DNA from: an uncultured Acidobacteriota bacterium
GTDB lineage: Bacteria > Acidobacteriota > Vicinamibacteria > Vicinamibacterales > CAVVIG01
Reading direction: 5' to 3'
Length of the DNA stretch: 64,000 nucleotides
Assembly (NCBI GenBank): GCA_902825985.1
Contig: CADEDC010000004.1
Coordinates: 6,686-70,685 of the forward strand
Numbering within the stretch: the stretch's first letter is position 1; each line of letters starts with the position of its first letter. The notes below the pieces were generated by a model. It ran no database searches. It was not told the DNA's origin and was given only the letters and a program-made list of their open reading frames with translations. Positions 29,636 through 36,085 of the stretch are shown in pieces. The position numbers and the translations under genes were made by a program.

Positions 29636-30415
29636 GTGCCCGGCCTCCGGACCGTGACCGTCACCCGTTACGTCACGCCGCTTCGCGAAGGTGGCTCGCT
29701 GCCGGCCCTCGTCGAGGCCGACGACGATGGTCTGTACGTGCTGAAGTTCCGCGCGACCGGCCACGGCGCCAGGGCGCTGGTGGCCGAGCTCGTCGCCGGC
29801 GAAATCGCCAGGACGCTGGGCCTGCCGGTGCCCGAGATCGTGTTCGCCGGGCTCGATCTCGACCTGTCGCGCACCGAGCCGGACCCCGAGATTCATGCGC
29901 TGATGCACGACAGCGCCGGCCTGAACCTCGCCATCGACTACCTGCCCGGGGCGTTCAACTTCGACCCGCTCGTCCACGCCATCACGCCCGACCTCGCGTC
30001 CCGGATCGTCTGGTTCGACGCGCTCGTCTCGAACGTCGACCGGACGGCGCGGAACACGAACATGCTGCTGTGGCACAAGGCGCCGTGGCTCATCGACCAC
30101 GGGTCGTCGCTCTACTTCCATCACGCGCCGGGCTGGGAATCGGACGGCACCAGGCCACGCGCCGCGTTCGAGGCCATCCGCGATCACGTGCTGCTCGGTC
30201 ACGCACCGTTGATCCGCGACGTCGACGAAGCCCTTGCGGCCCGGCTCACGCCGGCGGCCATCGATGGCATCCTGGCGGACATTCCGGATGCCTGGCTCCT
30301 CGAGCGCACGGCGGACGTCGGCGCCGCGACGATACGCGACGGTTATCGGCGGTACCTGCTGAACCGGCTCGAGGCGCCGCGACCGTTCGTCGAGGAGGCG
30401 GCGAATGCCCGCTGA
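29636..30415 (+). CDS. HipA-like kinase (HipA_2 type)
   Basis: 259 residues. It resembles the compact HipA-like kinase family. An ATP-contacting Lys is likely in DGLYVLKFRATGHGARAL (Lys 37). The catalytic loop is probably WFDALVSNVDRTARNTNML (Asp 135, Asn 140/142) and the metal-binding Asp is in WLIDHGSSLYF (Asp 154), echoing the NxDxHxxN and DF/DH motifs of HipA. There is no HipB-like repressor; instead a DUF3037 gene overlaps the 3' end by 11 bases. HipA phosphorylates tRNA synthetases and causes dormancy; whether this smaller family does so is unknown. GTG start, leaderless-looking. Confidence 0.8.
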   Translation: MPGLRTVTVTRYVTPLREGGSLPALVEADDDGLYVLKFRATGHGARALVAELVAGEIARTLGLPVPEIVFAGLDLDLSRTEPDPEIHALMHDSAGLNLAIDYLPGAFNFDPLVHAITPDLASRIVWFDALVSNVDRTARNTNMLLWHKAPWLIDHGSSLYFHHAPGWESDGTRPRAAFEAIRDHVLLGHAPLIRDVDEALAARLTPAAIDGILADIPDAWLLERTADVGAATIRDGYRRYLLNRLEAPRPFVEEAANAR

Positions 30416-30809
30416 CTACACGTACGACTACGCCGTCATCCGCGTGGTGCCGCGTGTCGATCGAGGCGAGCGGATCAATGCCGGCGTCATTCTGTCGTGC
30501 GCCGACACCGATTTCCTCGACGCACGGGTCGAACTGGATGAGGCGGCGCTCCTCGCGCTCGACCCGAGCGCCGACCTCGCGGAGGTGCGCGCGAACCTCG
30601 ATCTGATTCGCCGGATCTGCCGCGGTGGATCGGACACCGGCCCGGTAGGCGCACTGCCGCCACGCGGCCGATTCCGCTGGCTCGTCTCGCCGCGCAGCAC
30701 GATCATCCAACCGTCGCCGATCCACACCGGGCGCACCACCGATCCGGCGGCGTGTCTCGACCATCTGATGGCGCGTCTGGTCACGCGTCGCGCACCTAGT
30801 CGAACGTGA
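30405..30809 (+). CDS. DUF3037 protein paired with HipA-like kinase
   Basis: 134 residues. The pattern YTYDYAVIRVVPRVDRGERI, NAGVILSCADTDFLDARVEL and the C-terminal LVSPRSTIIQPSPIHTG fits DUF3037, a small family without known function. ATG 30405 lies inside the 3' end of the HipA-like gene (11-base overlap), implying coupled translation and a shared role. It could be a regulator, antidote or substrate of the kinase. The 3' end overlaps the convergent outer-membrane gene by 14 bases. Confidence 0.82.
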   Translation: MPADYTYDYAVIRVVPRVDRGERINAGVILSCADTDFLDARVELDEAALLALDPSADLAEVRANLDLIRRICRGGSDTGPVGALPPRGRFRWLVSPRSTIIQPSPIHTGRTTDPAACLDHLMARLVTRRAPSRT

Positions 30810-31434
30810 TGTCGAGGTGGAGCATCGCCTGGATGCCCAGCAGCGGCGGCTCGATGCCGGACGAGGCGGCGCTGCCGAACGTCGCGCGCCACCGTCCCTC
30901 TGGACGAAATGCGACACGGTCGTTCACGGCGATGCGGAGACCGCCGTGCAGATCGAACGCCGGGCGCGTCAGGCTCCAGGCCTGGCGCTCGTCGGGTCCG
31001 GCCACCGGGAACCCGCCGGGGCCCGGAAGTGTGGTGCGCCACGTCAGCACCCCGGTCGACCGCAGGAGACCGAGGCCGGCGCCGGCCGTGGGGCGCACCG
31101 CGGCATCGGGACCTCTGAACAGGTAGGTGGCGCGGCCGAACACGCCGACCAGGTCACCGTCCGCCCGCAGGTAGCCGGAGTCGCGAACGTGCCTCGTCCA
31201 GTCGACGTCCGCCGCCAGTCGCAGGCGGCCGACGACGACGGTCGCCACGCCACCGGCGAGCGGCGCCCCGCGCCCCAGGTTGGTTTCGTCGTCCCACAGC
31301 GCGCCCCACCCTGCTCCGAGGCTGAGGTCCATCGGCACCGACGGTGCGGTCTGTGCCTCCGCCGACGCCGTGACCCAGCCCACCAGGAACAACCCCGCCG
31401 CCAGCCCGCTCGCCCACCGTTTCAGTGCGTTCAT
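30796..31434 (-). CDS. Putative outer-membrane beta-barrel protein
   Basis: 212 residues: signal peptide (about 1-27, ending ASAEAQ), then alternating strands such as MDLSLGAGWGALWDDE, GVATVVVGRLRLAADVDW, VFGRATYLFRG, FDLHGGLRIAVNDRVAFRPEGRWR and a C-terminal strand MLHLDITFD ending in an aromatic-X pattern. About eight strands are expected, like small OmpA/OmpW-type barrels. AGGAG lies eight bases before ATG 31434 (a GTG one codon upstream is also possible). Function unknown; the fold call is from pattern only. Confidence 0.65.
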   Translation of the reverse strand: MNALKRWASGLAAGLFLVGWVTASAEAQTAPSVPMDLSLGAGWGALWDDETNLGRGAPLAGGVATVVVGRLRLAADVDWTRHVRDSGYLRADGDLVGVFGRATYLFRGPDAAVRPTAGAGLGLLRSTGVLTWRTTLPGPGGFPVAGPDERQAWSLTRPAFDLHGGLRIAVNDRVAFRPEGRWRATFGSAASSGIEPPLLGIQAMLHLDITFD

Positions 31435-31539
31435 CACATCCGCTCCTGGCAGGGAATGCGCAATCGCGGGGCCGGCCGGCTCACCGAGGGCAGCGGCGTT
31501 GGGAAGACCGACCGATGCTGCTACGCTGCCGGAGTCACC

Positions 31540-33055: not shown

Positions 33056-36000
33056 ATGACGAACCAGCACAACGGACGACGATTGTATTGGAAGCTCGGG
33101 ATCGGCCTGCTGGCGGCGACCGGGGCCTACGTCTGGTACGCGTCGTCGCAGTACGAGCGGCTGCGCGCACTCTACCAGCGGCAGCTCACGCACGCCGCCG
33201 CCGAGCTGCGGGTCAGCTTCGAGAACGCCCGAATCACTGTCGCGCGATTCGAGAAGGACGGCGGCCGGCGGCCGGAACGCTTCGACGCCGAACAACCCTA
33301 CGTCGCGCTTGCCCAGGCATGCCACACGCCGCCCGAACCGTTCGAGATGGTGCGGCCCGACGGCAGCTGTTTCGTGTTCCAGGCCGAGCGGCTGCTGCAC
33401 GAGCTGTCATTGTCGGAATCGTTCAGCCTGCTGTTCATCGCTCTCGAAGACGGGACGGTGGTGCAGCAGATGACGCCCGGCCAGACCTGGCTGAAGCACC
33501 TGCGCTGGGGCGAGCAGGTGTTCCGTGACTCTGCCGCCGATCAGACGGGATCGCTCAGCCTCCGCCGTCTCGACACCGTGTTCGACGACACGCCGGGCGC
33601 CTGGACACGGCTGCGCGCCGTGAGCAGCCGGACGAGTCAGCGCATCGGCGGGGAGTGGTTCGAAGTCCACTTCGAACCGCTGGTCATCGACCATCCCGGC
33701 ACGCCCAGCGGCCGCATGCCGATCGTGCTCGGCGCCGCGGTCGCCTCCCGCACGCTCATGCGGCAGGCGCTGGCGGTGGACAGCTACTTCCTCGCCGCGC
33801 TGGTCTTCCTGCTGCTGCTCGGCGTGCTCGGCTTTCCGTTCGTCAAACTGCTGTCGCTCGATGCGCACGAACGATTCCGCCTGCGCGACGTGACGCTGCT
33901 CTATCTGAGCACGGCGGCGCTGCTGGCCCTCTTCACGTTTGCCTCGCACGGCACCGACGGCTACATGCGCTGGCGCGCCACCGCCGACCGCGGCCTCTCG
34001 GCGCTGGCGGAACAGATGGACCGCGACCTGGTGGCCGAGGTCCAGAGCATCAGCGATCAGGTGGCCGCCTACGACGCCGCGATTGCGGCGCGCGGACGGG
34101 AGGGGCTGGGCCCGCCGCAGACCGACTGGTTCGGTGCGGCGCCCGGGACGGCGGGACGGCTGGCGCCGCCGCACCCCGGCGCGCAGATCGAACAGCTGTC
34201 GTGGATTGCCCCGTCGGGCGAGCAGTTCTGGAAGGTGACGACCGACCCCACGACGTCGCTCATCGACGTGTCGCAGCGCGTCTACTTTCGCGCCGTCCGC
34301 GATCGCCACCTCTACGCCGTCGACGAGACACGGCCACCGTTCTACCTCGGTCCGGACCGCTCGATCCGCGACGGCAAGCTCTACACCTTCGTCGCGTTCC
34401 GATCGCGGCTCGACGGCGGCAGCGGTGACACCGCCACGGCACCGGTGGTCGTTGCCTCGACCCGCCTGCTGTCGCTGAGCGCGCCGGCACTGCCGGCCGG
34501 CTACGGCTTCGCCGTGATCAATCGAGAGGGGCGCGTCCTCTATCACTCCGACGAACGGCTGTCGTTGCGCGAGAACCTGTTCGACGCCCTCAGCGAAGGG
34601 CCGCGCGCCAGGGCGATGGTCTATGCGAACCACAGCGATCTGCTGGGCAGCCGGTACCGCGAACGGCCGCATCGGCTGCATTTCCGGCCGGTGGCCCTGC
34701 GCAACGCCGACTCGCACGAACCGGCCGGGTTGTACATCGTCACGTTCCGGGATACGTCGACCGAGCGCGCGGTCATCGCGCGCGTCTTCGTCATCGCGCT
34801 GCTCGGTCCGATGCTCGTCCTGCTGTTGTTCATCGGCGCCTCGCTGCTGGCGATGGCGGTGGTTCCGCTGCGCCGGCAGCAGCGCTGGAGCGTGTGGCTC
34901 TGGCCGCATGGCGGCATGGTGCGTCTCTACACCCGGCTGTCGACGGTGCTCGCCGGGCTGCTCGTCGGCCTCGCCATCTGGTGGCGCCTCGGCGGCTCGG
35001 ATGTCGGCTACGCCGCGTTCCCGGTGGTCGCGATGGCCGCGGCGATCGGCACCTACATCGTCCACACGCGCCGCCCGGCGGCACGTCGCGGGCTGTCGGC
35101 ACCCGGGTGGTACGCGACGGTCTTCGTGCTGTTGCTGTTGTGCACGGTCGTCATTCCGGCGTCGGCGCTGTTCCGCTCGGCACTCGGGCACGAGTTCGGA
35201 AAGCTGATCGCCACCGAACAGCGGTGGATCGCCGACCAGCGCCGCGACATCCCGCGTCGCCTCGAAGCCGAAGTGCGGGCCGAGCGGTTGCCCGAATCGG
35301 CGGCGCGACGGCTGGCGGACGGGCGCGCCCGCTACTTCACCCAGGCGTACGTGCCACATCCCTTCGACGTCCGCCCCGAGGAGACGCCGGACTCGGCCCG
35401 CTGGCTGCTCGCGCCGTTCCACTGGGTGGACGCGCTGCTGCCGATCGAGAACGACAACGCGGCACGGCTGTGGTACGAGGACCGTGAATGGTCGTACACA
35501 CCGGACGGAACGTGGCGACCGGCGCTGCCGGTGTCCGGCGGCGGCGTATTGTGCTTCGTCGGCCTGTTCGGGTTGCTCATCTGGTGGATGCGCTGGAAGG
35601 TCACGCACCTGTTCTTCGCGGACCGCGAGGCCACCCGGCCGGACGGCACCGCAATCGCGACGCTGTGGGCCGCCTGCACGCTCGACGAGCAGCTGGTGCT
35701 GCTCCAGACCACCCACGAGCACGTCGTGAACCCGCGGCAGCGGCGGCTGATCGAAGGGCTGCTCGGCCGCGGCCTGTTGACCCTCGACCCCGACCTGCGG
35801 CCGTTCTCGCGCGAATTCGAAGCGTTCATCCTGGCGCGCGAGCCCGAACTGCAGGCGCAACTGGCGGAGTGGGAAACCGTCGACTCGCATCACAGCTGGC
35901 GCTACGCCCGGCTGGTGCTGGTGACCTCGGTGGCCGGCATCGCGTTCTTCCTGGTCGCAACCCAGCCGGGCCTGCAGTCGGGGCTGCTCGGCGTCGCCAC

Positions 36001-36085
36001 CGGCGTCGCCGGCGCGCTGACGACCACGCTGAAACTCAAGGATGCCGTCGCGTCATGGATGAACAGCGGGAAGACGACTGCGTAG
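33056..36085 (+). CDS. Large membrane protein with extracytoplasmic sensor-like domains
   Basis: 1009 residues, not recognised as a named family. One membrane helix at about 12-30 is followed by an extracytoplasmic region to about 240; helices at about 242-265 and 278-300 precede a second outer region (about 300-575), whose LSWIAPSGEQFWKVT, VSQRVYFRAVRD and YGFAVINREGRVLYHSD resemble dCache/PAS-like ligand-binding folds. Four helices (about 578-720), a third outer loop, another helix (about 825-845) and a cytoplasmic stretch with NPRQRRLIEGLLGRGLLTLD (winged-helix-like) follow, with two final helices. No kinase, cyclase, methyl-accepting or GGDEF output is present. GGGGA precedes the ATG. Its 3' end overlaps the convergent hydroxyacid oxidase by 33 bases. 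Confidence 0.75.
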   Translation: MTNQHNGRRLYWKLGIGLLAATGAYVWYASSQYERLRALYQRQLTHAAAELRVSFENARITVARFEKDGGRRPERFDAEQPYVALAQACHTPPEPFEMVRPDGSCFVFQAERLLHELSLSESFSLLFIALEDGTVVQQMTPGQTWLKHLRWGEQVFRDSAADQTGSLSLRRLDTVFDDTPGAWTRLRAVSSRTSQRIGGEWFEVHFEPLVIDHPGTPSGRMPIVLGAAVASRTLMRQALAVDSYFLAALVFLLLLGVLGFPFVKLLSLDAHERFRLRDVTLLYLSTAALLALFTFASHGTDGYMRWRATADRGLSALAEQMDRDLVAEVQSISDQVAAYDAAIAARGREGLGPPQTDWFGAAPGTAGRLAPPHPGAQIEQLSWIAPSGEQFWKVTTDPTTSLIDVSQRVYFRAVRDRHLYAVDETRPPFYLGPDRSIRDGKLYTFVAFRSRLDGGSGDTATAPVVVASTRLLSLSAPALPAGYGFAVINREGRVLYHSDERLSLRENLFDALSEGPRARAMVYANHSDLLGSRYRERPHRLHFRPVALRNADSHEPAGLYIVTFRDTSTERAVIARVFVIALLGPMLVLLLFIGASLLAMAVVPLRRQQRWSVWLWPHGGMVRLYTRLSTVLAGLLVGLAIWWRLGGSDVGYAAFPVVAMAAAIGTYIVHTRRPAARRGLSAPGWYATVFVLLLLCTVVIPASALFRSALGHEFGKLIATEQRWIADQRRDIPRRLEAEVRAERLPESAARRLADGRARYFTQAYVPHPFDVRPEETPDSARWLLAPFHWVDALLPIENDNAARLWYEDREWSYTPDGTWRPALPVSGGGVLCFVGLFGLLIWWMRWKVTHLFFADREATRPDGTAIATLWAACTLDEQLVLLQTTHEHVVNPRQRRLIEGLLGRGLLTLDPDLRPFSREFEAFILAREPELQAQLAEWETVDSHHSWRYARLVLVTSVAGIAFFLVATQPGLQSGLLGVATGVAGALTTTLKLKDAVASWMNSGKTTA

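Follow-up and report, generated by a model that had tools for sequence, protein, structure and literature searches.

A HipA_2-type kinase gene overlapping a short DUF3037 gene in an Acidobacteriota genome: a putative two-gene unit related to HipAD

The gene pair and its kinase

What kind of unit is formed by a compact HipA-type kinase whose gene runs into that of a small DUF3037 protein? We studied such a pair in a window of 64,000 nucleotides (the whole stretch of DNA analysed) from an uncultured, soil-type Acidobacteriota bacterium. The kinase ORF (29636-30415) has a GTG start and encodes 259 aa, and the DUF3037 ORF (30405-30809) starts with ATG and encodes 134 aa; both are on the positive strand. 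GC3 values of 0.90 for the kinase and 0.79 for the DUF3037 gene gave both frames the coding signature of a GC-rich genome. The 11-base frame overlap, already reported in a first-pass annotation of this DNA, was recovered at these coordinates and is consistent with coupled translation. The features of the pair are the following:

29636-30415, positive strand: HipA_2-type protein kinase gene, 259 aa, presumed toxin (Pfam, PADLOC, AlphaFold2, fold match)
29681-29707, positive strand: putative glycine-rich loop LREGGSLPA, residues 16-24, containing the conserved Ser21
29744-29746, positive strand: codon of Lys37, the predicted ATP-binding lysine (alignment)
30032-30061, positive strand: putative catalytic loop NVDRTARNTN, residues 133-142, with Asp135 and Asn140 (alignment)
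30095-30097, positive strand: codon of Asp154, the predicted metal-binding aspartate of an IDHG motif (alignment)
30405-30415, positive strand: 11-base overlap of the two frames, like overlaps being kept in homologous loci
30405-30809, positive strand: DUF3037 gene, 134 aa, presumed antidote, consisting of the DUF3037 domain alone (Pfam, PADLOC, AlphaFold2)

The surroundings of the pair were ordinary. An SMP-30/gluconolactonase gene lies upstream; an ORF without Pfam match and then a UDP-glucose dehydrogenase gene lie downstream, and genes for a glucose/sorbosone dehydrogenase, an FMN reductase and an FMN-dependent dehydrogenase are found around them. No HipB-type helix-turn-helix gene is located beside the kinase, the adjacent genes being those for the SMP-30/gluconolactonase, the DUF3037 protein and the ORF without Pfam match. 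The earlier statement that the kinase has no HipB partner thus stands, and the locus differs from HipBA, of which an adjoining HipB-type antitoxin is the criterion. No tRNA genes were found within the 64-kb window and no break in composition was seen at the position of the pair. A 213-aa ORF in the negative strand (30796-31437) faces the DUF3037 gene tail to tail, the two ends overlapping by 14 bases; this ORF had no Pfam match and no relative among 26 related genomes, hence it gives no synteny information. Farther along, a 1009-aa ORF in the positive strand (33056-36085) showed a good coding signal, no Pfam match and, by eye, the look of a membrane protein.

The kinase matched the Pfam family HipA_2 (PF20613, E 1.2e-16) and the PADLOC profile PDC-M66A (E 5e-19). 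For comparison, DUF3037 proteins were divided into a short class (~130 aa, E < 1e-34) and a long class (~285 aa, weaker match), and kinases paired with either class were aligned (125 short-form and 12 long-form). Lys37 was present in all 122 short-form kinases with a residue at that position and in 12/12 long-form ones; Asp135 and Asn140 were each found in 125/125 short-form kinases, as was Asp154, which is kept across all 137 aligned sequences. The four residues were also invariant across 45 homologous loci. This conservation, together with the PF20613 match, confirmed the compact HipA-type kinase with Lys37, Asp135 and Asp154 of the first-pass annotation, and the window kinase appears to have an intact catalytic apparatus. 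Ser21 occurred in 120 of the 121 short-form kinases having a residue there. Its position matches that of the autophosphorylated serine described beside the Gly-rich loop of HipT and HipA (PMC8262856, PMC10627512), which makes Ser21 a candidate autophosphorylation site.

The AlphaFold2 model of the kinase (pLDDT 92.9) showed a predicted HipA-like kinase fold. The nearest solved fold was CtkA (Z 16.1 over 211 residues, 16% identity), followed by phosphatidylinositol 4-kinase II, HipT (Z 11.6) and HipA (Z 11.6); the PDB yielded no match for the kinase by sequence or by profile.

A separate observation concerns the long form. The catalytic Asp was replaced by Asn, in an NGRQAVF-like motif, in six of the 12 sampled long-form kinases (L093, L094, L095, L096, L097 and L098, with HipA_2 genes near 8.6-10.9 kb of the locus), and Lys37 and Asp154 were retained. 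These kinases, still paired with DUF3037, may be pseudokinases or have an unusual catalytic arrangement.

The DUF3037 partner and its link to the kinase

The partner matched Pfam DUF3037 (PF11236, E 1.5e-40) over model positions 1-118 of 118, and matched PADLOC PDC-M66B weakly (E 7e-6, profile positions 3-62 of 281). Its conserved residues are intact and its 134 aa are a normal length for the short branch. These features bear on the reading of the pair as a decaying or non-functional remnant, which we regard as most improbable: the DUF3037 gene is present as a single copy in the source genome, and the kinase gene has a GTG start before which no strong ribosome-binding site was noticed by eye, but the catalytic residues are all intact as well as those of the partner, and the DUF3037 match is full-length.

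The AlphaFold2 model of the partner (pLDDT 91.1) gave no match in a fold search against the PDB at E 0.001 (best Z 3.3), and searching the PDB by sequence or profile likewise yielded nothing for this protein. HipS was absent among the matches of both the sequence profile and the fold search, an absence that does not exclude kinship; the lack of a good PDB match shows neither a new fold nor a difference from HipS. It has nevertheless to be considered that the partner may act in the manner of HipS in HipBST, as the counterpart of the missing HipA N-terminal subdomain wedged into the kinase active site, which would refine a toxin-antitoxin reading (see below). The window kinase, as HipT, has a Gly-rich loop near the N-terminus with a Ser in it and is devoid of the ~100-aa N-subdomain-1 (PMC8262856), and the partner is similar in size to HipS and presents an invariant Trp92, HipS using Trp65 (PMC10627512). 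Trp92, however, sits in a predicted helix, and no profile or fold link joins DUF3037 to HipS or to any solved protein. We consider a HipS-like action quite unlikely.

We then examined how often the two genes occur together. In a sample of 396 genomes of the phylum, every DUF3037 place was matched against every HipA_2 place. Short DUF3037 genes directly followed a HipA_2 gene in 41/41 cases, and 44 of the 48 long ones had a HipA_2 gene directly upstream. In a collection of species genomes the kinase was upstream of the short DUF3037 gene in 79/80 loci belonging to nine named phyla; in the lone exception DUF3037 starts 52 bases from a contig end. The pairing of HipA_2 with short DUF3037 is near-obligate and not due to chance. 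The first-pass annotation had taken genomes that commonly carry each gene alone as evidence against a unit; short DUF3037 was essentially never found alone, and HipA_2 was found without DUF3037 in 13/98 places of the phylum sample. The overlap between both genes was almost universal in homologous loci and in most cases 4-26 bases long, 23 being the commonest length; start codons in the survey were chosen by rule and two odd gaps (-134 in L059 and +77 in L178) are probably artefacts. No third gene was seen to travel with the pair beyond lineage-level synteny.

Two loci with a HipA_2 kinase and no DUF3037 are described here. In L104 (1106-3339) the kinase is preceded, as judged by eye, by an XRE-type helix-turn-helix gene and one for a LuxR-type small protein, a gene organization different from that of the HipA_2-DUF3037 pair. 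In L105 (9441-10322) the kinase is fairly near the short clade (97 bits) and no DUF3037 gene adjoins it.

Trees were built for the 125 short and 12 long kinase/DUF3037 pairs. All long kinases formed one clade (support 0.98), and so did all long partners (0.94); the same short/long split in both trees indicates that the two proteins split together. Within the short clade, kinase and DUF3037 distances were correlated (r 0.86; best of 500 permutations 0.11; no control gene was included), a correlation that could be partly due to shared vertical descent. The best reading of these data is that the short form is a compact, old sister lineage of HipAD, constituting a separate clade for both proteins.

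Genomic setting and probable function

Short-form pairs were found in nine named phyla, and their clustering follows phylum lines for the most part (14 changes, with a minimum of 8). Flanking genes were common to all sampled Streptomyces short-form loci, and were also shared by six loci of one Acidobacteriota genus (part of it) and by three of a second genus of the same family. Synteny and clustering by phylum of this kind are less usual for a mobile defence gene. From 34 diverse short-form loci, 128 neighbours were examined; they included few PADLOC matches, mostly generic, a descriptive count taken without a background rate; no mobile-element family was among the 25 commonest Pfam matches of these neighbours. 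The short form is chromosomal and has no obvious defence-island setting. Its presence is patchy, any DUF3037 gene being found in 12/60 relatives and none in the one same-genus genome. An empty-site comparison yielded no empty site: the orthologous UDP-glucose dehydrogenase gene of the same-genus genome lies 342 bases from a contig end on the side of the pair, and a more distant genome shares the UDP-glucose dehydrogenase gene only.

Such a setting brings up the main rival to a toxin-antitoxin unit, namely a chromosomal regulatory kinase: a signalling unit in which the kinase would, in some condition, phosphorylate one particular host protein, with DUF3037 as a regulatory or substrate-docking subunit and a purpose other than growth arrest. 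The synteny within Streptomyces and part of an Acidobacteriota genus, the clustering mostly by phylum and the housekeeping neighbours are in favor of it. Moreover, 18 of the genomes sampled from the phylum (G202, G209 and G275 among them) had both a short and a long pair, at separate places, which suggests that the two pairs do not replace each other, so their jobs may differ. On the other hand, the patchy presence mentioned above and the toxicity of DUF3037 loss in the validated sister branch argue against a signalling unit, which we consider unlikely.

The explanation that we favor, with a probability of roughly 0.7, is a two-gene toxin-antitoxin unit composed of a HipA_2 kinase and a coupled DUF3037 inhibitor. 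The invariant catalytic residues, the near-obligate overlapping pairing and the matched divergence of both proteins speak for it, whereas every functional result was obtained with the long-partner branch and the short branch is found in ordinary chromosomal surroundings. The kinase would be an active HipA-fold protein kinase that slows or stops growth by phosphorylating a host protein, and the DUF3037 protein, as judged from validated relatives, would bind the kinase and hold it inactive. When phage infection or other stress upsets this balance, the kinase would be freed and growth would stop, which would limit phage spread. For the short pair, the toxicity, inhibition, target, trigger and phage defence in this scheme are all presumed by analogy with the sister branch. 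Since the second half of the long antitoxin is missing, DUF3037 itself would be the neutralizing part, and autoregulation through that half would be absent. The coupled toxin/antidote or defence unit proposed in the first-pass annotation, with DUF3037 as the antidote, thus fits the near-obligate pairing and the validated relatives; its accompanying remark on the lack of an established role for either family is outdated, the pair being listed as PADLOC PDC-M66 and having been validated as DS-6/HipAD (PMC13092281) and in the Retron-Sda1 operon (PMC12548924).

It is also conceivable, although we hold it as tentative and somewhat doubtful, that the short branch represents a separate kinase-inhibitor unit of ancient origin, inherited for the most part vertically and having a chromosomal role of its own. 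The phage-borne HipAD defence systems would then have derived from it by gaining a second antitoxin domain, or would share an ancestor with it. If this were true, DUF3037 alone would represent a minimal kinase-inhibiting fold without known structural relative. The validated HipAD-type antitoxin is two-part, and the widespread short branch isolates the part most likely to inhibit the kinase; the short pair would therefore be a minimal system for structural and mechanistic work. In view of the stable chromosomal positions, one may ask whether this kinase family had its origin in regulation and not in phage defence.

Comparison with known systems

The HipA_2-DUF3037 pair corresponds to the PADLOC phage-defence candidate PDC-M66. 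By its apparently intact HipA_2 kinase and the DUF3037 gene directly downstream, the window pair belongs to PDC-M66 in the wide sense; it lacks the second half of the antitoxin and so falls outside HipAD/DS-6 in the narrow sense. DS-6, renamed HipAD, is a validated anti-phage system whose defence requires a kinase residue; AlphaFold3 predicted binding between A and B and contact of B with DNA, the latter assigned to its second domain, DUF1829 (PMC13092281). In the record of a lambda-like coliphage the pair lies between cI and kil; its genes carry the annotations HipA toxin and HipD antitoxin, and the partner has 275 aa. A Pfam search on the second half of this phage HipD gave no match above the cut-off. 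PDC-M66, DS-6 and HipAD share with the window pair the order of HipA_2 kinase followed by DUF3037 protein and the same putative ATP-binding lysine and metal-binding aspartate, but the validated HipAD partners are of ~280 aa with a second domain, in contrast to the 134 aa of DUF3037 alone in the window.

In the Retron-Sda1 operon, members of both families are neighbours and reportedly act on their own as a toxin/antidote defence unit: the operon defended against phage Bas51 without need of the retron parts, deletion of the kinase abolished defence and deletion of DUF3037 was toxic (PMC12548924). It differs from the window pair in belonging to a retron operon and in that the C-terminal region of its DUF3037 protein resembles a retron DNA-binding protein; neither feature is present in the window.

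With HipBST the window pair has in common a compact kinase without N-subdomain-1, the Ser by the Gly-rich loop, a small separate inhibitor (a putative one in the window) and the HipT fold match (Z 11.6); it differs in having no HipB and in a partner that is not detectably HipS and is placed downstream of the kinase. The solved fold nearest to the window kinase is that of Helicobacter pylori CtkA (PDB 3AKK), but its PDB entry calls it a proinflammatory kinase, and a common fold does not show a common function. What is new here is a partner consisting of DUF3037 alone, in a separate clade; the kind of pair itself was already known.
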